Below are positions 33,822-50,286 of a stretch of DNA of 64,000 nucleotides, in pieces. Source of the stretch: Candidatus Kuenenia stuttgartensis. GTDB taxonomy: Bacteria > Planctomycetota > Planctomycetia > Pirellulales > UBA1268. Positions within the stretch are counted from its first letter, which is position 1, and every line of letters begins with the position of its first letter. The notes under the pieces are model-generated. The model ran no database searches, was not told where the DNA came from, and saw only the letters and a program-made list of their open reading frames with translations. A program made the translations under genes and the position numbers. The DNA is taken from assembly GCA_945891385.1 (NCBI GenBank), contig CAMDDJ010000009.1:1-64000 (forward strand), in the 5' to 3' direction.

Positions 33822-35003
33822 ATGGACGCGCGTTCCACAGGAGGTGCCGCCGAACACGATCTTTCCGGCCGCAGGCTGGGGGGATACCGGCTTGTGCGTC
33901 GGTTGGGAAGCGGCGCCATGGCCGACGTGTATCTCGCCGAACAGACCTCGCTCGGCCGCAACGTGGCGGTCAAGGTGCTGCGGGCCGACACCCTCCGGCA
34001 CCCTGCGGCTGTCGAACGGTTCGAGCAGGAGGCGCGAGCGGCCGCTGCGCTCGTGCACGGCAACATCGTTCAGGTCCATGAAGTGGCATGCGTCGAGGGC
34101 GTGCATTTCCTCGCCGAGGAGTATGTGGCCGGCCCGACGCTGCGAGCCTGGCTCGCGGCCCGCGGGCCGCTTGATCCTCGGCAGGCGTTGGCCGTGCTCG
34201 GGCAGGTGGGGTCGGCGCTCGTGCGGGCGGCTCAGCAGGGCCTGGTGCACCGCGACATCAAACCAGAGAACCTACTCGTCACGCCGGCCGGCGACGTCAA
34301 AGTAGCCGACTTCGGACTCGTGCGGGTGCTGTCAGAGGATTCCGAACTCACCCGCGACGGTATGACCCTCGGCACACCGCTCTACATGAGCCCTGAGCAG
34401 GCCGAGGGACGACCGGTCGATTCACGCAGCGATCTCTACTCGCTCGGAGCCACGGTCTACCATCTGCTGGCTGGTCGGCCTCCATTCGCGGGGGCCTCAG
34501 CGATCGCCGTAGCGATGGCCCACATCAAGGATCCGCTTCCGCCGCTCGCGGGCGTGCGGCCCGATCTCCCGGCGGGCCTCTGCGAGATCGTCGAGCGGCT
34601 GCTGGCCAAGATCCCGGACGACCGCTTTGCCTCGCCCCAAGACCTCCTCAAGGCGGTCGGCAGCCTCGAGCATCGGGTGGCTCCCGGGGCACGGCTCGGC
34701 GAGTCACCGTTGGCCTGGGATGCGGGCGACAAAGACCTCTTCGACCCAACGGTATCTCCTTCAGGGCGGTCTGGTGGAGCCGGGGCCGTGACGATGGCCG
34801 AGCGGGCCCAGGCCATGACCGGCCGGCTCCGCGAGGCGACGAGGAACCTCGCAGCGGCGGAAGCCCGGGCTCGGAACCAGCGGCTCGAGCGGCGGCGGGT
34901 ATGGATCGCCACCGGGATGCTGGCTCTTCTGGCGGCAGGCCTCGGCTTTGTGATCGGCCGCAGCCGCCCGGGCAGGCCCCTCAGTCTCCGCCGTCGGTCG
35001 TGA
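33822..35003 (+). CDS. Ser/Thr protein kinase (Pkn-type) with C-terminal TM
   Basis: GYRLVRRLGSGAMADVYLAEQTSLGRNVAVKVL; VHRDIKPENLLVTPAGDVKVADFGLVR. Confidence 0.96.
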   Translation: MDARSTGGAAEHDLSGRRLGGYRLVRRLGSGAMADVYLAEQTSLGRNVAVKVLRADTLRHPAAVERFEQEARAAAALVHGNIVQVHEVACVEGVHFLAEEYVAGPTLRAWLAARGPLDPRQALAVLGQVGSALVRAAQQGLVHRDIKPENLLVTPAGDVKVADFGLVRVLSEDSELTRDGMTLGTPLYMSPEQAEGRPVDSRSDLYSLGATVYHLLAGRPPFAGASAIAVAMAHIKDPLPPLAGVRPDLPAGLCEIVERLLAKIPDDRFASPQDLLKAVGSLEHRVAPGARLGESPLAWDAGDKDLFDPTVSPSGRSGGAGAVTMAERAQAMTGRLREATRNLAAAEARARNQRLERRRVWIATGMLALLAAGLGFVIGRSRPGRPLSLRRRS

Positions 35004-35191
35004 CCGGGCCCGGTGGTCACCTGCACTGGGTCGCTGAGGATCCGCTGGGTGTGAAACGACGCGAACCCGCTCGCGTGGTAGATCGCTGGCCCGGGGCAAT
35101 CCGTGGGAAAACCGCGCTAATCGGCCTGGTTGATCGGCCGTTCAAGTCTGCTTGACTCGCTCGCCGACACTGCTAGAACGAAATGCGACCC

Positions 35192-35264
35192 GCCCCCATC
35201 GTCTAGTGGCCCAGGACGTCGGGTTCTCAGTCCGAAAACCGGGGTTCGACTCCCCGTGGGGGTA
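35192..35264 (+). tRNA. tRNA-Glu(CTC)
   Basis: GCCCCCATCGTCTAGTGGCCCAGGAC..., anticodon loop TTCTCAG, T arm GGGGTTCGACTCCCC, acceptor TGGGGGT. Confidence 0.95.
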
Positions 35265-35278
35265 CCTTTTTTTTGGCC

Positions 35279-35320
35279 AAAGAGGTGCTTTCCCCCGATA
35301 AAACGGGGGAGAGCATCTTT
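35279..35320. other. Long stem-loop immediately inside the left island end
   Basis: AAAGAGGTGCTTTCCCCC-gataaaac-GGGGGAGAGCATCTTT near-complementary arms. Confidence 0.75.
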
Positions 35321-35517
35321 CCGTGTTCCGGCCTTGGAACAAATGCGGAACGCCGCACCGCGGAGCCGCTCCTCTAGCTGGCCCGCCTTCTGTTTGTCTT
35401 GCCTCACTCGGCAACGCGTGTATCCCGAGTCATGGGCCGCGACAGAACAGAGAAAATATCTCTTGGTTTTAGTCGCGCGATTATATTGAAAACACGGGCA
35501 AAACATCATTTTGTCTC

Positions 35518-35545
35518 TTGACAATAGAGTTCTGTTCAGTACAAT
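35518..35545 (+). promoter_or_regulatory. Sigma70-like promoter
   Basis: TTGACA-16 nt-TACAAT upstream of first island ORF. Confidence 0.6.
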
Positions 35546-35639
35546 AAAGAGACCGAGTAGGGGCGAGCAACGGCCATAGTCAGGCTCGTGGCCTGCCATC
35601 AGATCGCCCCGACTGGTCGGACAAACAAAGGAATATCTC

Positions 35640-36290
35640 GTGGTTGATGATTTCGAGAAGAAGTTTGAGGCGGTGGACAACCTGTCCCGCGACATCGCGG
35701 TGCTGGAGCACGAGAACTGGTTCGTCCTCGAACAGGCTCAAAAGGTTCAGGATCAGATAGCCAAGGTCAGGGCAAAGCACGAAAAGGCATTTGGCGGGAG
35801 TATTGGCCCAGAGTCACTCGTCAGAAGGAAAGTAGACGAGTTTCGTCGCGGTCTGGAGCTTCGTAGTCGATCCATGCCGAAGAGCCGCACTCGCCCAACC
35901 ATACGCATAACTGGACCGATGAAGATTCAGGTACTCAAAGCCATGCTCATGGACTTTGAATCATTGAACAAGGAGGCCATCACGCTTGAGGAGATTGAAT
36001 CGTGGTGCAGTCGTGAAAGAAGAAAAGGCCGAAGCGAAATCCTGAATGAAATGGGGATAGGCAGCATCAGTATCCCTAGCACGCAGTTCTTTCAGACGAC
36101 GATCAATGGCAATTCAGTCCAGCTGTATCCACCCAGTGCCTACCGCACTCAGAAGCCCCCGTTTCCGGCAAGGTTTCACGTGAAGGAGTGGTTGCATTGG
36201 CTCAAGAAGGAAGAGCGGCGCCTTCTACGCGGTGAGCAGACCTCGCTAGACAAGGCATCGGTGCGAAAGCGATCAAAATTATCGAAGTGA
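35640..36290 (+). CDS. Hypothetical island protein
   Basis: 216-aa ORF (GTG start after AAAGGAA); coiled-coil-like N-terminus; no recognised family. Confidence 0.6.
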   Translation: MVDDFEKKFEAVDNLSRDIAVLEHENWFVLEQAQKVQDQIAKVRAKHEKAFGGSIGPESLVRRKVDEFRRGLELRSRSMPKSRTRPTIRITGPMKIQVLKAMLMDFESLNKEAITLEEIESWCSRERRKGRSEILNEMGIGSISIPSTQFFQTTINGNSVQLYPPSAYRTQKPPFPARFHVKEWLHWLKKEERRLLRGEQTSLDKASVRKRSKLSK

Positions 36291-36344
36291 CGCAATGCTG
36301 GCGGTCAGCATTGTGATGAGAATGAAGTTTCCAAGGGACAAAGA

Positions 36345-36590
36345 ATGAAATGGAGCAGTGAGATGACAAAAGACGAGGCAAAGCAGAAGGCAGCAAAAGA
36401 AGGCGGTCTTGAGAAGAGAAAATACTTTGAGACCTACCACACGATGGCATTTCTTGGGGTGAGCGAGGGCAGGCTCAAGGAACTCCTACGAGACGGGCTG
36501 CCTCACGGGAAAATCGGTCGTAGGAACATCTACGAACGCGAACAAGTCGAAGCGTGGGCAAGTAGCAATTTTTTTTGGACAAAAGCGTAA
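36345..36590 (+). CDS. Excisionase-like HTH DNA-binding protein
   Basis: FETYHTMAFLGVSEGRLKELLRDGLPHGKIGRRNIYEREQVEAWA: winged MerR/Xis-type helix-turn-helix. Confidence 0.75.
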   Translation: MKWSSEMTKDEAKQKAAKEGGLEKRKYFETYHTMAFLGVSEGRLKELLRDGLPHGKIGRRNIYEREQVEAWASSNFFWTKA

Positions 36591-36631
36591 GTCAATACTA
36601 AATACATACTCTAGTTACAAGGACATTCGGA

Positions 36632-37870
36632 ATGAAGATTTATTCGCAGAAGGACCGCGATTCGTCAAAGATCGCTATTTACCTGAATGGGGATCGCAAA
36701 TGGTGCGGCTTCCCTCGGCAGGTGTTGCAGGACAAGAAGTTCAAGAGGCAGCTCGAGGATTGCTTCGAGGACATTGAGCTCAAGAACCACACCGGCGGAA
36801 CGTTGGAGGCGTCCACCTGGGCCACTCTCCATCGAATTGAAAAAACAAACCCGCGTGTCTTTAGAAATCTCGTTAAGTGGAATGCCATTGATCCCAGGGG
36901 TGCTGTCGCGGGAAAGGAGATGTCGCTAGCGGAGGCGTTTGAGGACTATATCGGACGCGTCTTCACAAGCCCTCGCACGATAGACAACTGGAATCAAACG
37001 AAGAGAAGGCTCATCAGCTATTTTGGCAACCAGAAAACTATTTCCGGTGTGACGTTGCTTGAGATGAAGCAGTGCTTCGCGGAATTGAGTAAGCGTTATG
37101 CGGCATCCACACTGCACAAAGACCACAAAAACGTGAAGCAGCTGTGGCGAGAGTGTTCCGATAACGGACAAATAGCCACCAATGCCTTGGCCAAGTTCAG
37201 CTACAAGGTGGATCGACAGGACTTGGTCGCACGCAAGGAGTACGTCACGGCTGCATGGTTTGATGCCGCGTTGGCTTGTATCCAATCACAACAGCAACGA
37301 GCCTTGCTGGCCTACTACAGATGGCTTGGGGCTAGGCAGAACGATCCAAAAGGGGACAACTGGGAGGATCTGGAGTTGGACCGCGATTTCCCGCGAGTAC
37401 TGCGATACGACTGCAAAAAGAAGAGAAAACTTGGTTGGTGCCCGATTCCGCCGCAAGCAGCAGCCGAGTTGCGACAGTGGCGAGAACAAGTCATCGCCAG
37501 AGAAGGGAAGGCGATCGGCCCAATTTTTCCGTGGCTATTCGGGCGTAGCAGTTCCCGCGGCCATCAGTACTACGTCAGACGAATGAATCGCAAGAAGGTG
37601 CCAGTGTGGGATAGCTTTTTCAATTCACTTCGAGCCAGCCGTTCTCGCGAGATACGTGCTCTCGAAAATGGCCGCAAGTTGGAGCAGTTGTGGATTGGGC
37701 ATAGCGAAGCAGTTGCCGATCTGCACTATGACGTGGCGAATTGCGATCAGGATCAGAAGTTCATCGAAGATCACTACTTCGAGCAAGTATGCAGACAGCC
37801 CAATAGCCAAACTCGACCGCAGACCGAATCAGGCCAGACGCCAGAAGAGCAAAAGAAAGGAGTCGCCTGA
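36632..37870 (+). CDS. Tyrosine recombinase/integrase
   Basis: 412 aa; core-binding region SPRTIDNWNQTKRRL..; RWLGARQNDP, SLRASRSREI, WIGHSEAVADLHYDV (R..R..H..Y). Confidence 0.85.
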   Translation: MKIYSQKDRDSSKIAIYLNGDRKWCGFPRQVLQDKKFKRQLEDCFEDIELKNHTGGTLEASTWATLHRIEKTNPRVFRNLVKWNAIDPRGAVAGKEMSLAEAFEDYIGRVFTSPRTIDNWNQTKRRLISYFGNQKTISGVTLLEMKQCFAELSKRYAASTLHKDHKNVKQLWRECSDNGQIATNALAKFSYKVDRQDLVARKEYVTAAWFDAALACIQSQQQRALLAYYRWLGARQNDPKGDNWEDLELDRDFPRVLRYDCKKKRKLGWCPIPPQAAAELRQWREQVIAREGKAIGPIFPWLFGRSSSRGHQYYVRRMNRKKVPVWDSFFNSLRASRSREIRALENGRKLEQLWIGHSEAVADLHYDVANCDQDQKFIEDHYFEQVCRQPNSQTRPQTESGQTPEEQKKGVA

Positions 37871-37875
37871 TAATC

Positions 37876-38169
37876 ATGAATGCAAACGAAAACGAATGGG
37901 ACAACCGCCTTGGTAGCAAGCATTGGACAGAATGGGATGAAGAGGAAATGGCGTATTTCAGGAAGAAGCAGGAGGAAAACCCGATAGACCCGCGCGAGGC
38001 AGCGATATACGCAACGCTATGCCATGCTCTTGAAGCGATCAGGCTGGAGATTCTGGAGCCGACATCTGAGATGGGGGTCGCAAATTTCGATGACATGCCC
38101 CCCCTGGTTTCCGATTGGTCTAGGAAGACCGCAAATGGCATTCTGCGTGTTCTGAATAACGCCATTTAG
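37876..38169 (+). CDS. Hypothetical island protein
   Basis: 97-aa ORF starting 6 bp after integrase stop. Confidence 0.5.
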   Translation: MNANENEWDNRLGSKHWTEWDEEEMAYFRKKQEENPIDPREAAIYATLCHALEAIRLEILEPTSEMGVANFDDMPPLVSDWSRKTANGILRVLNNAI

Positions 38170-38286
38170 GCCAGTAGCCTGCTCTGTTCCTTGGCAATTC
38201 GGATGGGTTCCCGCACAATACCCCCCTGGCGGATGATCTTAGGAGGCTAGGATCGCCGCCTAGGCGGGTATCTGTGCTGGTGAGCA

Positions 38287-39351
38287 ATGCAGGGAGGCGT
38301 CGTGGCCCACGCGGACTACTATCAGCGAACACTGGAGTGGGCTTCTCGCCTACGCGTGTGCAAGAAGTGCTGCCCAGCACCTACCGTTGCAGCGGTGACA
38401 CACGCTTTTAAAGCGGACTTGGCCGAATACTTTCGGTTGTGCGCTCTAGCAAGAAGCTCGAAGGCCCCATCTGAGCTTTCTCGTGAAGCCCATGGGCTGC
38501 TCTTCAGGTGCCGCACGCTATTGGAGAAAGCTCTGCATGAGTCCTTGGTGTGTTCAGTGCGTGACGATGATGATGCCACGACAGCGCTTTTTGCGAAAGG
38601 TTTTTTCGGCAAGAGCAAGAAGCAAGGCGTTAGTGTTCGGATGCCGCTAACGTCGTGCATTCCAACGGTTCTTTGCGGTGCGGCCTGCTACGCTCACGAT
38701 GTCCTTGATGCGACTCCGCAGTCAGTGGTCCGCGGAGCGATTAATGGCTGGCTTGCACACCTATGGGAGCATGGCGAATCCAGAACGCGTGAGAAAATCT
38801 TCCGTGTTTTGCGGAGACCGACCGAATTGGCGGTGAAAGCCGCTTTTGACGAAGTGCGGCGATTGCCCCGCGGATTCACAAGACGACCCTACATCCGATT
38901 CAGTCACGTCGGCGAAGTGGTGGCCTACGCTGGTTTCGCTAATGGCGTAGCAGCGTTGGTGAGACAACTAAGTCGAAGAAGGGTCGATTGCGTTGTCTAT
39001 ACCCGCCATCGCTATGCGGGGAGCCTCGACCCCGCGCTCTGGATAATCAATTTCACTCTGGATCCGAGTAGCGAAGAACGGCGCGCGTGGGCGCCGTCAA
39101 ATGCGAGACTCGTTTACTCAGCGTTCAGTGGGTCTATTTCTGACAACGTTGCAGTGAATTTCCTTGAGCATCACCGGCATTCCCATGTGGCCGTTTCCGC
39201 AGGTTCGGGAATCGTGTGTCCAGCTACTGCACCGGACGCGCAGGACAGAACGTGCGACGGATGTCGCTGTAAGACCTGCTTCGAGCCGGTAACCGACCTT
39301 CATGCGATAGCACCCATACCTGCCGCCGCCGTCACGGCTGAGTCGCGATAA
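38287..39351 (+). CDS. Cys-rich protein with Gp88-like motif layout (function unknown)
   Basis: SKKQGVSVRMPLTSCIPTVLCGAACYAH, IRFSHVGEV, VVYTRHR, C-terminal CPATAPDAQDRTCDGCRCKTC; possible GTG start 38302 after AGGGAGG. Confidence 0.5.
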   Translation: MQGGVVAHADYYQRTLEWASRLRVCKKCCPAPTVAAVTHAFKADLAEYFRLCALARSSKAPSELSREAHGLLFRCRTLLEKALHESLVCSVRDDDDATTALFAKGFFGKSKKQGVSVRMPLTSCIPTVLCGAACYAHDVLDATPQSVVRGAINGWLAHLWEHGESRTREKIFRVLRRPTELAVKAAFDEVRRLPRGFTRRPYIRFSHVGEVVAYAGFANGVAALVRQLSRRRVDCVVYTRHRYAGSLDPALWIINFTLDPSSEERRAWAPSNARLVYSAFSGSISDNVAVNFLEHHRHSHVAVSAGSGIVCPATAPDAQDRTCDGCRCKTCFEPVTDLHAIAPIPAAAVTAESR

Positions 39352-39360
39352 GAAACACCC

Positions 39361-40536
39361 ATGTCTGCTCCCCGAGTCCTCGACATGTTTAGCGGTTGTG
39401 GCGGCCTTTCAGTCGGCTTGTCGGAGGCTGGATTTCGTGTGCTAGGCGGCCTTGACGCAGATTGCGATGCAATCACAACGTTTAAAAAGTCGCACCCCCG
39501 GAGCCTTGGCCTGCAAGTTGATGCGAGAAGGTTCGTTGATGACTTGGATAGTTTTCTTGGGTCTACAGACGGAATCGATGTATTGGTTGGAGGACCGCCT
39601 TGCCAAGGGTTCTGCGTGATCAACCCAAAGCGATCACAAGACGATCCCCGGAACGCTTGCATTCAAGTATTTCTTGATGCCGCTCTGTCTCTGATGCCCA
39701 AGGCAATCGTCATGGAGAACGTGCCTGGCCTACTCACTCTGGCGAAGGGCTTCGCGTACAAGAAAGTCTGCGAGGTGCTCGGTTCGGCGGGATTCACAAC
39801 CTCTGCAATGGTTTTGCAGGCAGCACACTATGGTGTCCCGCAAAGTCGCTGGAGGCTCTTCATAGTGGGGCTTCGGGGGAAGCAGTTTGCGTTCCCTGAA
39901 CCTACGCATCGCGCGATGATTCGGCCGAATATTGCCGGTGGCAGAAGCATGACGATGCGAATACCTCCCGCCGATGACCTATTTACGACGCTGTTGCCCC
40001 CGGTAACGGTGGCTGATGCCATTTCGGATATGCCACCTATTCGTAATGGAGGCGGCAAGGCAGTCGCTGAGTACAGAAAAGCCGCTGCAACAGACTTTCA
40101 AGTTAATGCGAGAGCTTCTTCCGAGTCGCTGAGCAATCACCAGACGCTTCGGCTGGGTGACGCGTACATGGATCGCATCAAAGCGATTCCCAAAGAGGGG
40201 ATGTGCTGGAAGGATCTGCCTGAGGATTTGATTCCCGCAAACATCCGGCGGTCGCAAGAGAAGTGGAAGTGCGACACACCAACCCGCTTTGGGCGACTTC
40301 GGAATGACGGCCTTTTCACAACGATCCTGACACGCCCTGAGCCGTACTGGGGATCGTTCATCCATCCGTCACAGCACCGCGTCATATCAGTGCGGGAGGC
40401 AGCGCGAGCCCAAAGCTTTCCAGACCATGTGGTCTTTCAAGGTGACCTGCCGTCGCAATATCGACAGGTAGGCAACGCCATCCCACCGCTCTTGGCCAAG
40501 GTGCTTGGCAAGGCTTTGCTGCGCCAGCTGGCTTAG
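39361..40536 (+). CDS. DNA (cytosine-5) methyltransferase
   Basis: VLDMFSGCGGLSVGLSEAGF; GGPPCQGFCVIN; VMENVPGL; C-terminal RQVGNAIPPLLAKVLGKAL. Confidence 0.96.
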   Translation: MSAPRVLDMFSGCGGLSVGLSEAGFRVLGGLDADCDAITTFKKSHPRSLGLQVDARRFVDDLDSFLGSTDGIDVLVGGPPCQGFCVINPKRSQDDPRNACIQVFLDAALSLMPKAIVMENVPGLLTLAKGFAYKKVCEVLGSAGFTTSAMVLQAAHYGVPQSRWRLFIVGLRGKQFAFPEPTHRAMIRPNIAGGRSMTMRIPPADDLFTTLLPPVTVADAISDMPPIRNGGGKAVAEYRKAAATDFQVNARASSESLSNHQTLRLGDAYMDRIKAIPKEGMCWKDLPEDLIPANIRRSQEKWKCDTPTRFGRLRNDGLFTTILTRPEPYWGSFIHPSQHRVISVREAARAQSFPDHVVFQGDLPSQYRQVGNAIPPLLAKVLGKALLRQLA

Positions 40537-40559
40537 CCATTACTACATAGGTGTGAAGA

Positions 40560-43500
40560 ATGCCAACGGATAAATTTTCTACTGCCTTCAAAAACTATCG
40601 CCGAAACGCAAAGAAAGCTGTCAAGGAACATCAGCCACACGATCAGCGTCGTGCAATCTTCTATGAATTCATGAACGATGGGTTCGGCATCAAGGTCAGC
40701 GAATACGAGACGGAGCCTTTCGTAAGCCAAAGTCGAATCGATACGGGGTATATCGACCACCTTTACAACAATCTGCTAGTCGAATTCAAAAAAGACTTTG
40801 AGCGTGAGCACGCCGCAGGCATCGAAGAGATCAATCGATACTTTCGCATCGAGCCGACTGCGCAGTACGCATTCTATACCGACGTTTGTCGTTTTAGCGT
40901 CTACAAGAGGGACGGAACGGGTGTCAAGCAGATAGACGAGAAGGACATCCGCAAGTTGTCAGAGGTCGAGGCCCTGCACTTCTTTGATAGTTTCTTCTTC
41001 TCCGCCGACGCAATCGTTCCAACATCAGAAGACATCGTTACACGATTTGGGGCGAGTAGTGTCACCTACAACAGTTCCTACGAGCTTTTAGCAGCCATGT
41101 GGGGCAGGCTGTCCTCTGACCCCACTGCTCAAACGAAGTATGCCCAGTGGAACCAGCTTCTGTCGAAGGTTCATGGCAAACTTCCGAATGACCACGACTT
41201 ATTTCTCCGACACACATATCTAAGTCTTCTCGTGAAGTGTCTGGCTCTGGTGGCGCTTCCCATAGATGCGGAGCTGAGCGGGGATAAGCTCCTTGAGGTA
41301 ATCGATGGTCGCATTTTTAGAGCACATCGCTATCCGAATCTTGTTGAGGAAGATTTTTTTGCCTGGGTGTTGTCTGACGCGACCTGCGACGATGCAAGAG
41401 ACTTGCTGGCCATGCTGCTCGCGCGAATCAGAAAGTACGATCTCACTAGGATTAATGAGGACTTGCTCAAGGAGCTGTATCAGAACCTCGTTGACTCTGA
41501 GGAACGTCAGGAGTCTGGCGAGTTCTACACACCGGACTGGCTAGCAGACCTCGTCATCGCGGAGTCCGGTTACGCGGCAGCGATTGCGACAAGCGTCTCA
41601 AAGGATGAGCCACTTCCCACGCTTGTCGATCCTGCTTGTGGCTCCGGCACATTTCTTTTTCGTGCTATAGCGACGGCTCGTGCCGGTGGCGTGGCTGGTG
41701 AGGATCTTGTTCGGTATTGCTGCCAGGGTTTGATGGGAATGGATGTCCACCCGCTCGCAGTGACCATAGCGAGAATTAACTTTGTCCTTGGCCTTGCCGG
41801 TGAACTGAAAGGCTATACGGAAGATGTCTTTACCCCCGTCTACATTGCCGACGCATTGCAGGAGTTCCACAACGTAAGCGGTGGCACCAGTATCCACATT
41901 GACTCGACAGGCCCAGGATGTGCAACAGCAGCGGCTGATCCGTTTTCCATTCCCGTTGCTCTGGCCACCAACCGCGAGTTGTTTGATCAGATTATCGATC
42001 TCATGCAAAGCTTTTCGTCGCATGTGGGCAAGATGCCAAGCATCACTGATGGGTTCTGGAAGGCGGCATTGCGGCTCGGCGCGGACCCGTCGTGGCAAGC
42101 GGAGCTGGTGGCTAATTGCCGTCTACTGACTACCCATGTGAGGAAGAAAACTGATTCCATTTGGGGCTATGTGCTACGCAACTGCTCACAGCCAGCGTTT
42201 CTTCGTGCAACCAAAGCAGACTTTATTGTGGGCAATCCGCCCTGGAAGGCCCTGCGGAACATCAGCCACAAGGCTTACCAAGAGGCGATCAAGAAGCAAA
42301 TTATTCGCCATGGCTTGCTAAGCAAGCACGACAAAACTCTCTTTGGAAGTATGGAGGTGTGCACACTGTTTTTCGCCGTGTGCGAAACGGATTACCTCAA
42401 GCCGGGCGGAGTCGTTTCTTTTATCTTGAATCGAAGCATGTTGAGCGGCGCTGCTCAGCACGACGTTTTCCGAAGTAGCGGTTTTAGTTCGCTTATCGAC
42501 GGAAAGTCCATCTTTACAAAGAAGAAGAAGCAAGGGATTTTCCCAATGCCCTTCTGCGTTGCGACAAGGTGCCATGCTACGGCAAGGAAGACGGATATTC
42601 CGTTCACTGAGATTTCCGGGCGAGTGCCTCGGGGAAATCCAAGTCTTGAAACGGTTGCGCCCGATCTCATGCGCACAACAAGTAGATATTCGCCGCCACA
42701 GCCGCTCGGGCCACCGACTTTTTACAGTAGCCGCATACAGCAAGGCGCGACGATTACGCCAATGGCTTTCTGGTACGTCCAGCTGAGAAGTGTAGTGCCG
42801 AAGAAGGAAACGGCTCCAGTGCCGGTGGAATCCAAGCCAGAAATAAGCGAAGGTGGTAAAGAGCCGTGGAGAGGAAGGCACTTCACGGGAGTGTGTGAGC
42901 GTCAATTTCTGTACGCCACTCTTCGCGGAGACAACTACGTTCCCTTTGCGGTCCTCGATTACGACTTGGTGATTGCGCCTATTGTTCTGGCAGATGCCAA
43001 GAACACCGTGCTCACGTTGCCCCGCGCAGTGAAGGAAGGCTACGCCAGCATCGCTGCATGGATGAAGCAGATCCAAGAAGTGTGGGTTAAGCACAAGAAG
43101 CCCGCGTCTCCCAAGGACGTTGTTGAACGCATCAACAAATATCGGTTGCTCGAAAAGCAGAATCCACAACGAGGGTTTAAGGTCATCATCAACAAGTCTG
43201 GCACGAATATCGCTTCTGTGGTCATTAACGCGGCTGAGGTCGTAGGCTTGCCAGTGCGTGGAGTGGGGGTGATGGGCTTTGTTGCCGACACGCAAACCTA
43301 CATCTACTCGACTGAAAGCCGTGAGGAAGCCCACTACCTTTGCGCGGCTCTTAATTCAGCGACGGTTAACGATGCGGTTAAGCCCTACCAGAGCGCCGGG
43401 GAGCAGGGTGAACGTGATCTGCACACCAAGGCGCTCCGAGCGTCGCCGGTCCCGCGCTTTTCGCCCGCTAATCCCGACCACGTTAAGCTCGCGGAGCTCA

Positions 43501-43697
43501 GTGTCGCCTGCCATGAGCAAGTTGCGGCCAAGATTCCTGAACTACTAACGTTATCAGCAAACCAACGTAGGACATTTTGCAGGAAGGAGGTCTCTGTCTT
43601 ACTGGGCGAGATCGACACGCTAACGAAGCGTATTCTCGCGAGTGATGCTGGGGCAAGCCTTAGTGGCGAGGTGCCAATGACGTTGTTCGCAGAATAG
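40560..43697 (+). CDS. Type IIG-like restriction enzyme/N6-adenine methyltransferase fusion
   Basis: N-terminal RIDTGYIDHLYNNLLVEFKKDF (PD-(D/E)xK-like), DPACGSGTFLFRA motif I, FIVGNPPWKAL motif IV, C-terminal specificity-like region. Confidence 0.87.
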   Translation: MPTDKFSTAFKNYRRNAKKAVKEHQPHDQRRAIFYEFMNDGFGIKVSEYETEPFVSQSRIDTGYIDHLYNNLLVEFKKDFEREHAAGIEEINRYFRIEPTAQYAFYTDVCRFSVYKRDGTGVKQIDEKDIRKLSEVEALHFFDSFFFSADAIVPTSEDIVTRFGASSVTYNSSYELLAAMWGRLSSDPTAQTKYAQWNQLLSKVHGKLPNDHDLFLRHTYLSLLVKCLALVALPIDAELSGDKLLEVIDGRIFRAHRYPNLVEEDFFAWVLSDATCDDARDLLAMLLARIRKYDLTRINEDLLKELYQNLVDSEERQESGEFYTPDWLADLVIAESGYAAAIATSVSKDEPLPTLVDPACGSGTFLFRAIATARAGGVAGEDLVRYCCQGLMGMDVHPLAVTIARINFVLGLAGELKGYTEDVFTPVYIADALQEFHNVSGGTSIHIDSTGPGCATAAADPFSIPVALATNRELFDQIIDLMQSFSSHVGKMPSITDGFWKAALRLGADPSWQAELVANCRLLTTHVRKKTDSIWGYVLRNCSQPAFLRATKADFIVGNPPWKALRNISHKAYQEAIKKQIIRHGLLSKHDKTLFGSMEVCTLFFAVCETDYLKPGGVVSFILNRSMLSGAAQHDVFRSSGFSSLIDGKSIFTKKKKQGIFPMPFCVATRCHATARKTDIPFTEISGRVPRGNPSLETVAPDLMRTTSRYSPPQPLGPPTFYSSRIQQGATITPMAFWYVQLRSVVPKKETAPVPVESKPEISEGGKEPWRGRHFTGVCERQFLYATLRGDNYVPFAVLDYDLVIAPIVLADAKNTVLTLPRAVKEGYASIAAWMKQIQEVWVKHKKPASPKDVVERINKYRLLEKQNPQRGFKVIINKSGTNIASVVINAAEVVGLPVRGVGVMGFVADTQTYIYSTESREEAHYLCAALNSATVNDAVKPYQSAGEQGERDLHTKALRASPVPRFSPANPDHVKLAELSVACHEQVAAKIPELLTLSANQRRTFCRKEVSVLLGEIDTLTKRILASDAGASLSGEVPMTLFAE

Positions 43698-44192
43698 GAA
43701 TGTCATTCTAGGTGGCAAAACGAACGGCGCCCCAATCATTCTTTTCTTAGGAAACCATTCCTAGACCACTCCCCTCCAAAAATGAAGGAGAGTGTCGGAT
43801 CTTTTCTTGAGGTTTCCCCGTACTGAGCCGACTTGCAAGCCTTTCTTTGGGAGTTGCTTGTTTCTAACCCCTACTCCCTCATTTGCTTTTCTTCGTCTCC
43901 GCCCGGACAGTGGACAACACGGCAGCAACGATGCGGGCTTTCACCGCGAAATGACCAATGAAATATGAATCGCTCAAAAATGCCTTATGGCTTCATCATT
44001 TGTTTGTGTCCGCAGCACACGAGTCGGTTGACGATGGACCGGATGGCAAGCTGAGCCTCTATATCTCTAGTACACCAAACTCATAAAAAACCAAGCGGAT
44101 TCACACGCTAACAAAAAAACGCTTAATCCTGAGCGGATGGTGTATCTCCTTATGTGCTGAAGATGGCACGAATTTCAACAAGGAGAAAAAAG

Positions 44193-44486
44193 ATGAATGC
44201 GCAGACGTTTCTGGCCGCAAATGTGGCCAATGTGATCTATGAGGATGGACGAAAGTGCGAATGGTGGCCCTTCGAGTCGAGGGCCGCATTTGACGATTTC
44301 TTGCACAGCCGTCCGATTCGGCTACGCGGAGCAGGAACGCACCTGATCGTGGGCCTAGATCAGAATCGTGAAATCGTGGTGCGAGAGTTGGAAAGCATCA
44401 CCGATGCGGGCGACGTCACGCAGGATGCGTTCATCGTCTCATACGCGCAGCTGACTGAAAGGGTTATCCATGAGTACGTTTCGTGA
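44193..44486 (+). CDS. Small hypothetical protein of island cassette
   Basis: ATG 44193 preceded by AAGGAG SD; overlaps next ORF by 17 nt. Confidence 0.6.
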   Translation: MNAQTFLAANVANVIYEDGRKCEWWPFESRAAFDDFLHSRPIRLRGAGTHLIVGLDQNREIVVRELESITDAGDVTQDAFIVSYAQLTERVIHEYVS

Positions 44487-44754
44487 GTCCGCATTTTTCA
44501 ACAAGAGTGAGCTTGTGAGGCTCGTCTATAGGGATAATCCGTCTGCGTCAAATTCTGAAATCCGGCACGCAGTAAAACAGCGATGGAACGTAGATGTTGC
44601 CGCGAACCTGATAATCCAGGCGGTCGGCCGGGAACGCGACCGCGTTGCATATCTGGCGTCGCATTCATCACTCCAGAAACTGGCCAAGAAGTTCCTCAGT
44701 GACTGTGGCGGAAATCTTTCCATCGCGATCAATCATCTAAGGCTCGCTGGATAG
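44470..44754 (+). CDS. Small putative HTH protein of island cassette
   Basis: FNKSELVRLVYRDNPSASNSEIRHAVKQRWNVDVAANLIIQAVGRERDR helical, HTH-like pattern. Confidence 0.55.
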   Translation: MSTFRESAFFNKSELVRLVYRDNPSASNSEIRHAVKQRWNVDVAANLIIQAVGRERDRVAYLASHSSLQKLAKKFLSDCGGNLSIAINHLRLAG

Positions 44755-44762
44755 GGCATCTC

Positions 44763-45458
44763 ATGGACTTGCACGCCCAACACGCAAACCTAAGGCTCGC
44801 GCCTGATTTGATTGATGACTACCTGTGGCTTCAGAAAACGTACAAGGACGCCCAAGAGGAATATCGGCGCAAGACGCCCCCAATAAGGCGTTTGCATAAG
44901 TTGATCAAGAATCATTGCGTTCCCGCGAAGACGCGTGCGTGGCACTTTCTTGAGAATGTGTGGGTGTGGAATGATGCAGTTGTGTTTGAGTTAGAGAAGG
45001 CGTGGTGGGACGATGTGCCTACAAGCGGTGACTGGCTGGCATATCTCCGTCGAATGTATGTTGTCGATTCAAAGAGGTCGTGTGGCTACGGATCGCAGTT
45101 CATCGACAATCTACTCCAGTGGTGTCAGGAGTCGGGGGCAGTGGTGTGCTTGGTGAGCCTTCTGTTTGGATTGTCGCGAAATGCCATCGACAGAGGTCCG
45201 TTCTTTTTTGAAACGATAGAGGATGTCTTGGGCGTCTGGGAGAAGGGTGAGATTCATCCTGTTGTCGGAGGGGAATGGTTGCGAGACTGGTATGTGAGCA
45301 AAGGGTTCCGAAGAGGCAAGCTCTTGGATGGCGACTTTTTTGGCTTTCAATCCTGCATCAGTCATCTTGACCAGTTTGTCTTTGTTCCCGATTCCTTGGA
45401 CGGCTCAGCTAAACTAGCGGCATCGCACCGCCTCCGCGATGAGTCGCCCGATGAGTGA
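44763..45458 (+). CDS. GNAT acetyltransferase-like protein
   Basis: RRMYVVDSKRSCGYGSQFIDNLLQWCQESGAVVCLVSLL (acetyl-CoA loop-like) and LRDWYVSKGFRRG. Confidence 0.6.
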   Translation: MDLHAQHANLRLAPDLIDDYLWLQKTYKDAQEEYRRKTPPIRRLHKLIKNHCVPAKTRAWHFLENVWVWNDAVVFELEKAWWDDVPTSGDWLAYLRRMYVVDSKRSCGYGSQFIDNLLQWCQESGAVVCLVSLLFGLSRNAIDRGPFFFETIEDVLGVWEKGEIHPVVGGEWLRDWYVSKGFRRGKLLDGDFFGFQSCISHLDQFVFVPDSLDGSAKLAASHRLRDESPDE

Positions 45459-45893
45459 TCTGACAGGAGCAGCCGATGGCTTATTGCCTCCGCATCAGGT
45501 GCTGTGAGGGCAGGGGGCTTTAAAAACACATCGCCTTGAACCGGGAACCGCTAAATGAAGTCGAAATGAGCGGAAATATGAGCGATGGCCAGGGGATCGT
45601 CCCTATCGCAACTGAACCACCGCGGCCGCCTGGGATGGCCGATAAGTTCGTGCAAAAACAGACAAACCCCCATACGTCTTCCGGCGGCGTGCGATGCCCG
45701 CTTCTCTGGAACAGATTTGGAACGGCAGGCATGGGTGGGGGTGAGGCAGAATGGCTCAAGGCGGCTCGTCAATCGCACGTTTTCAGGGATGCGTGGCTCT
45801 CTTTGCTGTGTCGTGGCTATAGCTGCCCAATCGAAAAAACTCGAAGAAAATTCGCGTGTACCGCCCGTGGGGGTACTCGCCATATTGGCTACA

Positions 45894-45929
45894 GCCCCGT
45901 TGCCCGACAGCGATCGGGCGGCGGGGCTT
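45894..45929. terminator. Terminator-like hairpin just outside the right island end
   Basis: GCCCCGTTGCCCGA-CAGCGA-TCGGGCGGCGGGGC followed by TT. Confidence 0.6.
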
Positions 45930-45955
45930 CTGAGTTGCTCCGATGGCCGAGGTCG

Positions 45956-46225
45956 TTACACGGCCGTCAACACCCACCAAATGGCGATGGTCAAGCAGAT
46001 CACCGCTGTGATCACGACCCAGGTCGGCCGCCTGGTCGCGGCGTGATCCTCCGCCGAAATGTATCGCTCGCAATGCGGGCAGCGGGGTGAGTCTTCGAGC
46101 ATCTCCCGCCCGCAGTAGGGACAGGGCACCGTCGGCTCTTCGTCGTCGGCATCCCAGGCGGAGTCATCCCCGTCCGGGTCGTCTTCCCAATCGTCCGGTT
46201 CGTCGTCGTCGATCACGAGAGTCAC
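45956..46225 (-). CDS. Small zinc-ribbon membrane protein
   Basis: PCPYCGREMLEDSPRCPHCERYI plus C-terminal TM WVVITAVICLTIAIWWVLTAV; GTG start. Confidence 0.7.
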   Translation of the reverse strand: MTLVIDDDEPDDWEDDPDGDDSAWDADDEEPTVPCPYCGREMLEDSPRCPHCERYISAEDHAATRRPTWVVITAVICLTIAIWWVLTAV

Positions 46226-46315: not shown

Positions 46316-47410
46316 ATGCCCCCGGTCGCACTGCTTCAGCCTTTCCCGCTTCACGACCTCACCCTGCCCAACCGCGTCGTGATGGCGCCGCTCACCCGAG
46401 GCCGGGCGGGGCCGACCCGAATCCCGAACCAGGTCATGGCGGAGTACTACGCGCAGCGGGCCGAAGCCGGCCTGATCATCTCCGAGGCCACCACCATATC
46501 CGAGCAGGCCAACGGCTGGCTCGAGTCGCCCGGCATCTACACCGACGCCATGGTCGAGGGCTGGAAGGGCGTGACGGCCGCGGTGCATCGCGCCTGCGGC
46601 CGGATTTTCCTCCAGCTCTGGCACATGGGCCGGGCCTCTCACAGTGACTTCCATGACGGGCGGCTTCCCGTGTCGGCCTCCGCGGTGAAGATCGAAGGCG
46701 ATGGCATCCACACGCCGCTGGGGAAGAAGTCCTACGAGGTGCCCCGGGCCCTCGAGACCTGGGAGGTTCCCGGCGTGGTGGCCGACTATGGCCGGGCGTC
46801 GGCCCGGGCCCGCGAGGCCGGCTTCGATGGCGTCGAGATCCACGCGGCCAACGGTTACCTGATCGATCAGTTTCTTCAGTCGAAGACCAACCATCGCACC
46901 GACGACTATGGCGGGAGCATCGAGAAGCGGTCGCGGTTCCTCAAGGACGTGGTCGAGGCGGTCGTAGCCGAGTGGCCGGCCGGCCGGGTGGGCGTGCGGA
47001 TCGCGCCGAACGGCGTGTTCAACGACATGGGGTCGCCCAACTACCGAGAGCAGTTTCTGCACGTCGCCGGCCTGCTCGACCGGTATCCGCTCGCCTACCT
47101 CCATGTGATGGACGGGCTGGCCTTCGGCTTCCACAAGCTCGGTGAGCCGATGACGCTGGCCGAGTTTCGGCAGGTGTTTCGCGGCCCGCTGATGGGCAAC
47201 TGCGGCTACGACGTCGCCACCGCCGAGCGGGCCGTGCTGGCTGGAGAGGCGGATCTGATCGCCTTCGGGCGGCCATTCATCTCCAATCCCGATCTCGTCG
47301 AACGATTCCGGAAGGGCTGGCCACTCGCCGAGCCGGCCGAGATGAGCAGCTGGTATTCGCCGACCGGCCCCCGGGGCTACACCGACTTCCCCGCCTACGC
47401 GCCGGTTTGA
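46316..47410 (+). CDS. Alkene reductase / Old Yellow Enzyme family NADH:flavin oxidoreductase
   Basis: LPNRVVMAPLTRGRAG, GLIISEATTIS, FLQLWHMGRASH, HAANGYLIDQFL. Confidence 0.95.
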   Translation: MPPVALLQPFPLHDLTLPNRVVMAPLTRGRAGPTRIPNQVMAEYYAQRAEAGLIISEATTISEQANGWLESPGIYTDAMVEGWKGVTAAVHRACGRIFLQLWHMGRASHSDFHDGRLPVSASAVKIEGDGIHTPLGKKSYEVPRALETWEVPGVVADYGRASARAREAGFDGVEIHAANGYLIDQFLQSKTNHRTDDYGGSIEKRSRFLKDVVEAVVAEWPAGRVGVRIAPNGVFNDMGSPNYREQFLHVAGLLDRYPLAYLHVMDGLAFGFHKLGEPMTLAEFRQVFRGPLMGNCGYDVATAERAVLAGEADLIAFGRPFISNPDLVERFRKGWPLAEPAEMSSWYSPTGPRGYTDFPAYAPV

Positions 47411-47493
47411 ACCGGCCCCGGGCCTCCTCATCGTTTGCTCATCGTCTTCGCCCAGACTCTCGCCGGGTTCGTTCTCTGCACTGGAGGTTTTCG

Positions 47494-50154
47494 ATGGTCG
47501 TGCGATGCGCCTTGGTGGTGGTGTCCGTGTTGGTGTTCAGCGTCGGCCGTGCTGCGGATGTGCTGACGATCACGGCCGAGAATGCCGCGACGATTGCTCC
47601 CGCAGGCAAGGAGGCGGACTGGATCTACGGCGACTACGTGCTTCGCAACGACCGGATCGTCGCGGTGATCGGTCGGCCCGTGGCCACCCGTCATGCCAAC
47701 ATGACGGTGCGGAACGTCGGCGGCTGCGTGATCGACCTGACGGCACGGAGCCGGCCAAACGATCAGCTCAGCTGCTATTACCCAGCGGCGGGTGCAGCGG
47801 CCTTCCGCTCCGCGGCCGCGGCCGCCACCGACGCCACGACCGGCGGGCTGACCATGGTGCCGGCGGCGGCCGACGGCGACCTGTTCGCCCAGGGAGCCCG
47901 GGTGAGGCTCGACTGTGCCTCCGAACCCACGACCGGCAAGCCGCGGGTCGCCGTCTCCTATGAGCTCGCCGACGGTGACGATCATGTCACCGTCACCACC
48001 ACATGGTCGAATCCGACCGCCGGGCCGCTCCGCGTCGACCTGGCCGATCGCGTCAGGGCCGACCGCACCTTCAAGGCGGTGATCGATGCCGCCGCCAACG
48101 TCGTCTGGTGGGACGACGAGTGGTTTGGCCAGACCTTTGCGATCCTGCCGAGTGAGGCCCGGATCCGCGGAGGCGATCTGCAGTCGCTGAAGCCTGTGCC
48201 CGATCGCGATCCGATCGGTTTCGAGCCGGCGTCCGGACCGAGAGAGGAACTGCCCGCGGGTGGTTCGATCACGCTCGTGCGGCGGATCGTCGCGGCACCG
48301 AGCCTGCTGGCCGCCCGGGGCATGGCGGCGAAGCTCGGGGGCCGCGACACGGTCGGAGTGGAATTGAGCGTTCGCGATGCAGCCGGCCCGGTGCCCGGGG
48401 CGGTCGTCTCCATGCAGGATGGGGCTGGGGCCCGCTACGGTGCTGGCCGGACGGACGCCGCCGGCCGGCTGGCGTTCGCCCTCCCCCGTGAATCAGCCGG
48501 GTGGACCTGCACCGCCTCCGAGGGTGCCCGCGGTGCGGTCGAGCAGCCGCTCACGGTCGAGCCGGCCGCCGCCACTGTCTCGCGCACGCTCGAGTTGCCC
48601 CGGCCCGGCTTCGTGGTGGCGGAGATCAGCGACGAAGCCGGCGGCCCGATCCCCTGCAAGGTGCAGTTTCGCGGCCGCGGCTGTCCCGACCCTGAGTTCG
48701 CCCCCGACAGTGCCGACACGGCGGTTCGCAACCTCGTCTACTCGGCTGACGGCCGGTTTCGCCAGGAGATCGCTCCCGGCACCTACGACGTGCTCGTCAG
48801 CTTTGGGCCGGAGTACGACGTGGTGACCACCGAGGTCACCGTCGCACGCGATGCCGAGGCCCGGCTGGCCGCCCGGTTGGTCCGCTCCGTGGACACGAAG
48901 GGCTGGATCAGCAGCGATTTCCACAGCCACTCCACCCCCTCCGGCGACAACACCTGCAGCCAGCTCGGCCGGGTGCAGAATCTGCTCTGCGAGCACATCG
49001 AGTTCGCCCCCTGCACGGAACACAACCGGATTTCGACCTACGAGCCGCACCTCGCGCGGCTCGGTGCCTCGCACCTGATGGCCACCTGCAGCGGCATGGA
49101 GCTCACCGGGTCACTCTTGCCGGTCAATCACCAGAATGCCTTCCCGCTCGTCGAGCATCCGCACACCCAGGATGGTGGTGGGCCGATCGTGAACAACGAC
49201 AATCCTGTTGCCCAGATCGAGCGGCTCGCCCTCTGGGACGACGGTGCCAGCAAGGTGGTGCAGATGAACCATCCCAACCTCGTGCAGGTGCTCGGTGATC
49301 GCGACACCGACGGCACTCCCGACGCCGGGTTCGAGCCGATGCTCGGCTTCGTCGATGTGATCGAGGTGCATCCCTTGGAAGAGATCTTCACGCCCGCGGC
49401 CATCGACGGCGATCCGCGGAAGCGGACCCACACCGTGTTCCGCTGGCTCCAGTTGCTCAACCTCGGCTATCGGATCCCGGGCGTGGTCAACACCGACGCC
49501 CACTACGCCTTCCACGGCTCCGGCTGGCTGAGAAACTACATTGCCAGCCCCACCGACGACCCGGCCGAGATCCGTGTCGACGACGTCGTCAAGGCCTCCG
49601 AGGCAGGCCGGGTCGTGATGACCAGCGGCCCATTTCTGGAGGTCACGGCGCAGGCCGACGGGGCAGGGGAGGCCGGTCCGGGCGAATCGCTGGCGGCTGC
49701 CGACGGCCGGGTCGCGCTCCGGGTGAAGGTGCAGTGTCCGAACTGGTTCGACGTCGATCGGGTGCAGGTGTTCGTGAACGGCCGTCCCGAGCCCGCCCTG
49801 AACTTCACCCGCCGCGATCATGGTGAACTCTTCTCCCGTGACGTGGTGCGGTTCGAACATACGATTCCCGTACGGCTCGAGACCGACGCCCACCTTGTGG
49901 TGGCGACGGTCGGCGAGGGGTCGGGGCTGGGCGTCGTGATGGGGCCCGACAACGCGGAGAAGAAGCCGATCGCCGTCGCCAACCCGATCTTCGTCGACGT
50001 CGATGGCGGTGGCTTCCGGGCGAACGGCGATCTGCTCGGCGTACCACTGCCGCATCAGAAGGAGCCGACGGGCCAGCACCACCACCATGATCACGACCAC
50101 GACGATCATGGCCATGCCGTGGGCGAGCCAACGGGTGTCAGCGACGCCCGCTGA
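47494..50154 (+). CDS. CehA/McbA-family PHP-type metallohydrolase with His-rich tail
   Basis: GWISSDFHSHSTPSGDNTCSQLGRVQNLLCEHIEFAPCTEHNR; C-terminal HHHHDHDHDDHGH. Confidence 0.85.
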   Translation: MVVRCALVVVSVLVFSVGRAADVLTITAENAATIAPAGKEADWIYGDYVLRNDRIVAVIGRPVATRHANMTVRNVGGCVIDLTARSRPNDQLSCYYPAAGAAAFRSAAAAATDATTGGLTMVPAAADGDLFAQGARVRLDCASEPTTGKPRVAVSYELADGDDHVTVTTTWSNPTAGPLRVDLADRVRADRTFKAVIDAAANVVWWDDEWFGQTFAILPSEARIRGGDLQSLKPVPDRDPIGFEPASGPREELPAGGSITLVRRIVAAPSLLAARGMAAKLGGRDTVGVELSVRDAAGPVPGAVVSMQDGAGARYGAGRTDAAGRLAFALPRESAGWTCTASEGARGAVEQPLTVEPAAATVSRTLELPRPGFVVAEISDEAGGPIPCKVQFRGRGCPDPEFAPDSADTAVRNLVYSADGRFRQEIAPGTYDVLVSFGPEYDVVTTEVTVARDAEARLAARLVRSVDTKGWISSDFHSHSTPSGDNTCSQLGRVQNLLCEHIEFAPCTEHNRISTYEPHLARLGASHLMATCSGMELTGSLLPVNHQNAFPLVEHPHTQDGGGPIVNNDNPVAQIERLALWDDGASKVVQMNHPNLVQVLGDRDTDGTPDAGFEPMLGFVDVIEVHPLEEIFTPAAIDGDPRKRTHTVFRWLQLLNLGYRIPGVVNTDAHYAFHGSGWLRNYIASPTDDPAEIRVDDVVKASEAGRVVMTSGPFLEVTAQADGAGEAGPGESLAAADGRVALRVKVQCPNWFDVDRVQVFVNGRPEPALNFTRRDHGELFSRDVVRFEHTIPVRLETDAHLVVATVGEGSGLGVVMGPDNAEKKPIAVANPIFVDVDGGGFRANGDLLGVPLPHQKEPTGQHHHHDHDHDDHGHAVGEPTGVSDAR

Positions 50155-50286
50155 CGGTGGTCCGGGGCGGTCCGCTCACAGCGGTTGAATCGGTTGGGGC
50201 AGCGGTGGCGGGTCGCCTCGCCCCGGTGGGCTTCCGTTTCCGAAGAGAGGCGGGAAGCCCGCGAATGGTCCGCGGACTGCCGGGAG

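Follow-up and report, generated by a model that had tools for sequence, protein, structure and literature searches.

Genomic islands that carry a tyrosine recombinase and target tRNA genes form a well-known general class. The 64-kb window analyzed here (the whole stretch of DNA, positions 1–64,000 of contig CAMDDJ010000009.1) contains a 10.6-kb foreign block that lies 3′ of a tRNA-Glu(CTC) gene between two copies of a 13-bp direct repeat. On the combined evidence of the repeats, base composition, empty or differently occupied sites in relatives and backbone conservation, this block is very probably an integrative element that was inserted at the 3′ end of the tRNA gene by site-specific recombination. 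As in the general class, the island combines an integrase gene (int) and an Xis-like gene (xis) with a direct repeat of the tRNA 3′ end, an intact tRNA gene at the left attachment site (attL), AT-richer cargo and an empty site in relatives. It differs from the class in that int has diverged too far to be matched by the Pfam integrase model and is oriented away from the tRNA gene, with xis and a further gene, orf216, in between. The island also fits the description of tycheposons and phage satellites in its tRNA border, tyrosine recombinase and variable cargo (PMC10872708, PMC11389934), and differs from them in having no recognized packaging or replication module. The kind of element is thus already well known; the new results are the evidence for an integration hotspot and a backbone that is common to elements at tRNA-Arg(CCT).

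The island ends are marked by two independent signals, the exact repeats and the composition of the DNA between them. The sequence CCCGTGGGGGTAC closes the tRNA-Glu(CTC) gene and recurs without mismatch at the right border (attR), exactly where an earlier note on this DNA, made from the sequence alone, had placed both copies. No third exact copy is found within the window, and CCCGTGGGGGTAC is the sole 13-mer of the tRNA gene that recurs downstream. The GC content is ∼0.53 between the repeats versus ∼0.69–0.70 outside, which bears out the AT-richer DNA described in the earlier note. In a maximum-likelihood two-breakpoint GC model that did not use the repeats as input, the best segment spans positions 35263–45852 with a log-likelihood gain of 470, and its breakpoints have support intervals of 35093–35387 on the left and 45848–45902 on the right. 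The compositional shift is therefore found at both repeats, and the two signals agree at both island ends.

Chance recurrence of the repeat was gauged by generating 400 sequences of 28 kb each with a first-order Markov model. Any 13-mer of the tRNA gene was present in 21 of these sequences, and one of its last six 13-mers was present in 2. A chance match to the tRNA end can thus occur over such a distance, as would be required if the AT-rich block were ancestral and no insertion had taken place. This explanation is strongly disfavored and extremely improbable, however, because the repeat-blind breakpoints fall at both repeats, in relatives the flanking gene blocks are retained at tRNA-Glu but the island is missing, and unrelated elements occupy the same tRNA-Glu site.

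Joining the two repeats in silico yields an intact tRNA-Glu gene, followed ∼17 bp further on by a strong hairpin (read by eye). This hairpin was probably the terminator of tRNA-Glu before the insertion displaced it. The earlier note had proposed this rejoined arrangement. Its intact tRNA and nearby hairpin hold, but the hairpin has no proper T-run and is absent from the terminator scan list. A hairpin, likewise read by eye, also lies close to the 3′ end of tRNA-Glu in relatives, which makes an ancestral tRNA–hairpin arrangement plausible. On the attL side, eight T residues of element sequence immediately follow the tRNA-Glu gene, and the terminator scan lists the tRNA end and the adjoining T-run as terminator-like. 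This T-run may stand in for the displaced terminator.

In related genomes, the tRNA-Glu(CTC) site is empty or differently occupied, as observed in G020, G017 and G002. In most of the examined genomes of the genus and family, the protein kinase gene of the left flank adjoins tRNA-Glu(CTC), and none of the other genomes sampled from the genus has the island. The site is empty in G020 (L120), where tRNA-Glu is directly followed by homologs of the window genes at 50185, 50944, 52758 and 54766. On the right flank, the znrib gene is located ∼3.6 kb (G009) and ∼6.6 kb (G018) downstream of tRNA-Glu, and in G017, whose contig starts inside the tRNA end, znrib is reached ∼0.7 kb later. The OYE gene (46316–47410) was considered as a right-flank anchor but rejected in favor of znrib and the block starting at 50.2 kb, because OYE homologs in relatives are not near tRNA-Glu.

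A second type of element at the same site identifies tRNA-Glu(CTC) as an integration hotspot, of which the window island is one occupant. In G002 (L116), an unrelated element of similar size is located at the same tRNA-Glu 3′ end and, like the island, contains a C5-cytosine methyltransferase gene of its own. Unlike the island, the G002 element has an integrase of another clade that points at the tRNA gene, a DUF3987/RepB-type primase-like gene and a 19-bp repeat, TCGACTCCCCGTGGGGGTA, whose second copy is 11.26 kb downstream. Integrases of the G002 type are also found beside tRNA-Glu in G008, G022, G048, G055, G062 and G068. The hotspot is thereby documented by an empty site and unrelated occupants within one genus. 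The integrative island put forward in the earlier note is thus supported by composition, by relatives that keep the kinase–tRNA pair without the island, and by the use of this tRNA 3′ end by unrelated integrase elements.

In the tRNA-convergent integrase type, the reading frame extends 20–76 bp, mostly 38–40 bp, into the tRNA gene on the antisense strand (L035, L039, L042, L043, L045 and L050; also L033, L040, L044 and L046). The last codons are consequently tRNA sequence, and excision could change the C-terminus. Contigs break in or at tRNA-Glu(CTC) in two relatives (L122 and L123 on contigs C130 and C107 of G009; L184 on contig C7 of G017), which could mean that the site is occupied in part of the population and empty in the rest, or could merely reflect repeats.

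Several observations weigh against an insertion at tRNA-Glu(CTC). The repeat is short at only 13 bp, and no relative contains a base-for-base empty version of the exact junction, as the G017 site lies at a contig start and G020 has no znrib here. No attR was found for the related elements at tRNA-Arg(CCT). In the closest relative, not only the island but also the two genes at 46.3–50.2 kb are missing, indicating that more than one event has altered the right flank. The OYE and PHP-like genes in this segment (46316–50154) are not beside tRNA-Glu in relatives, and G020 has neither of them here. Given also that the OYE homologs are located elsewhere, a second rearrangement of the right flank around these two genes is likely.

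Table 1. Features of the tRNA-Glu(CTC) island and its flanks in the window
Feature	Position	Strand	Evidence or remark
Protein kinase gene, left flank (host)	33822-35003	+	adjoins tRNA-Glu(CTC) in relatives
tRNA-Glu(CTC), integration target	35192-35266	+	ARAGORN
attL, 13-bp repeat	35253-35265	+	CCCGTGGGGGTAC, end of tRNA-Glu(CTC)
orf216, backbone gene	35640-36290	+	51% identical homolog in L164, distant one in L176
xis, Xis-like helix-turn-helix (HTH) protein, likely excisionase	36345-36590	+	HTH_17, PHROG, L164 homolog
int, divergent tyrosine recombinase (integrase)	36632-37870	+	PHROG integrase, alignment, tree
orf97, variable middle	37876-38169	+	no family match
orf354, distant GP88-like protein with three-Cys motif, variable middle	38287-39351	+	homolog in L151/L152
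DNA C5-cytosine methyltransferase	39361-40536	+	PF00145, TIGR00675, PADLOC
Type IIG-like restriction-modification protein, 1045 aa	40560-43697	+	PADLOC, Pfam
orf107, right-hand backbone module	44163-44486	+	weak similarity to same-place gene in L164, E 0.002 (one comparison)
orf94, right-hand backbone module	44470-44754	+	36% homolog in L164
orf231, right-hand backbone module, possibly GNAT-like	44763-45458	+	30% homolog in L164; Acetyltransf_1 E 0.0026, below cut-off
attR, 13-bp repeat	45864-45876	+	CCCGTGGGGGTAC, exact match to attL
Hairpin, probably original tRNA-Glu terminator displaced by insertion	~45893-45930	+	by eye
znrib, small Cys-motif (zinc-ribbon-like) protein, right flank (host)	45956-46225	-	downstream of tRNA-Glu in G009, G018, G017

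The island contains ten genes, all of which are on the + strand and open without internal stops (Table 1). The tyrosine recombinase noticed between the repeats in the earlier note matches a PHROG integrase family (E 1.4e-14) and has no match to the Pfam integrase model. In an alignment with two relatives, it keeps the R-K-R-H-Y residues R235, K264/K266, R334, H357 and Y366, whose catalytic roles were assigned by eye; the element thus encodes a tyrosine recombinase with its catalytic residues. The xis product matches HTH_17 below the cut-off (E 3.3e-5) and a PHROG excisionase/regulator family (E 1.9e-3), and has a 51% identical homolog in L164. Based on the sub-threshold HTH_17 match and the conserved gene order in relatives, it is likely an excisionase; the Xis-like assignment of the earlier note is accordingly borne out by gene order but not by a profile match above the cut-off. 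The orf216 product was modeled with moderate confidence (pLDDT 74) as a helical N-terminus and a winged-helix-like part, and no significant fold match to the model was found. The best sigma-70-like match in the island (35518–35545; 11/12) is located ahead of orf216, and the total number of such matches in the island is no higher than in shuffles.

The state of these genes bears on the alternative that the block is an old, fixed island that can no longer excise and is kept for its restriction-modification (R-M) genes. This alternative is unlikely: it would fit a repeat of just 13 bp, compared with 19 bp in the G002 element, and the lack of transfer genes recognized in the Pfam scan, but all ten genes are open, the catalytic residues of int are kept, the composition has not drifted to the host level, and no other sampled genome of the genus has the island.

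Outside the window, the nearest integrase is found in G023 (L164), in a homologous element that lies directly 3′ of tRNA-Arg(CCT). The G023 element has the same gene order and strand as the island, with sequence identities of 51% (orf216), 51% (xis), 29% (int), 36% (orf94) and 30% (orf231) and a weak counterpart of orf107; a 418-aa protein is encoded between int and the orf107 counterpart. In G647 (L176), tRNA-Arg(CCT) is accompanied by orf216-like and xis-like genes, an integrase gene (33% identity), a gene for a homolog of the 418-aa protein and a small remainder of the right-end gene. A third element, in G650 (L178), is cut by the contig end; it has tRNA-Arg(CCT), and its first genes are 95–98% identical to those of G023. 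The G023 and G647 elements thus resemble the island in having orf216–xis–int, with order and orientation unchanged, immediately 3′ of a tRNA gene, and the G023 element also has counterparts of orf107–orf94–orf231. They differ from the island in their tRNA-Arg(CCT) site and in a 418–426-aa protein that takes the place of the R-M genes. The three integrases group together, separate from the tRNA-convergent type, with a support of 100/100 in a midpoint-rooted tree in which the G023 branch is long. In the phylum sample, the copy in the window is alone among 393 genomes; in the family sample, matches were obtained in 5 of the 73 genomes, one of them spurious. An orf216 match in G071 (L177) was rejected, as the other element genes are absent nearby.

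Because the middle segment consists of orf97, orf354 and the C5-cytosine methyltransferase and IIG-like genes in the island versus the 418–426-aa protein gene in the relatives, the elements appear to combine a common backbone with an exchangeable middle. The sequence comparison points to a small element family of this organization to which the island belongs and of which no description was found in the literature. The chances are about even that orf216–xis–int and orf107–orf94–orf231 characterize a family of compact integrative elements that has not been described before, inserts at two or more tRNA genes (Glu-CTC and Arg-CCT) and has a swappable middle and core genes without known function, including the winged-helix-like protein and, in relatives, the conserved 418–426-aa protein. 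The latter protein occupies the middle segment in the tRNA-Arg elements (L164:9579–10832 and L176:5933–7213) and displays family-A-polymerase-like motifs by eye (GFDF.NFQP and FFT.HD); no PDB sequence match was found for the 418-aa protein.

The middle of the island contains the R-M-like genes that the earlier note had recognized. The C5-cytosine methyltransferase matches PF00145 (E 1.1e-51), TIGR00675 (above the cut-off) and PADLOC MTase_II (E 4.7e-90). The IIG-like protein matches PADLOC REase_MTase_IIG over residues 236–634 (E 5.3e-76) and the N6_Mtase and Eco57I families above the cut-off. As in type IIG enzymes, N6-methyltransferase motifs are present in a single chain; a candidate nuclease-like motif (D...EFK) near the N-terminus was read by eye. 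A difference is that the full-length relatives found are just 31–33% identical (L162 and L163), and no Dcm neighbor was detected beside either of them.

Scans with the Pfam, NCBIfam and PHROGs libraries recognized no relaxase, as would be expected of an integrative and conjugative or integrative mobilizable element, and no secretion or conjugation genes in the island. The same scans recognized no primase, terminase, capsid or phage-packaging genes and none of the primase-replication and packaging-interference genes that characterize phage satellites (PICI, P4-like), although several island genes belong to no known family. It is quite improbable, in this light, that the island is a PICI-, P4- or tycheposon-like satellite carried in helper phage particles with its R-M genes as anti-phage cargo, even though the size, the tRNA site, the integrase with an HTH regulator and the defense-type cargo all fit and anti-phage systems are common in phage satellites (PMC11389934, PMC9122126). 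Moreover, relatives of int, orf354 and orf216 were not found in viral contigs, and those of orf354 and orf216 were found in neither phage records nor plasmids.

For an integrative element at tRNA-Glu(CTC), attP in the circular form, a copy of the tRNA 3′ end, would recombine with the chromosomal attB in the tRNA gene, so that the whole tRNA is restored at attL and the 13-bp copy remains at attR. The int product most likely catalyzes this recombination, the Xis-like HTH protein would favor excision, and orf216 may have a regulatory role here. The left (orf216–xis–int) and right (orf107–orf94–orf231) modules would form the backbone, with the middle as an exchangeable slot. The R-M cargo probably acts against incoming DNA and may help to keep the island in the population; type II R-M systems can stabilize the element that carries them. 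As no transfer genes were recognized, the island would depend on a helper or on passive transfer to move from cell to cell. The backbone core genes are concrete candidates for what transfer-gene-free islands need to move, and R-M genes are carried here on a compact backbone with core genes of no known function. The gene content of the relatives suggests that the host is probably a planctomycete. In a limited literature search, genomic islands of the host lineage seem little described.

The remaining middle genes are less clearly assigned. No family match was obtained for orf97 in Pfam, PADLOC, NCBIfam or PHROG profile scans. The orf354 product and one homolog, L151 (same locus as L152), have the motif PLTSC[IV]PT..C...CYA in common. 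The L151 homolog matches Pfam GP88 (PF17338) weakly and below the cut-off (E 1.9e-4), orf354 itself does not match this profile, and its structure model is unusable (pLDDT 35). An orf354 match in G108 (L150) was rejected, as it lies inside a methyltransferase reading frame and has no Cys motif. Our guess from the Cys motif is that orf354 might be a metal-binding accessory of the neighboring methyltransferase. At L152:2295–12408, the GP88-like three-Cys protein is encoded between a gene for a large CHAT/TPR-like protein and a QAT-like defense cluster, in which KAP NTPase, QueC-like and TatD-like genes were read by eye.

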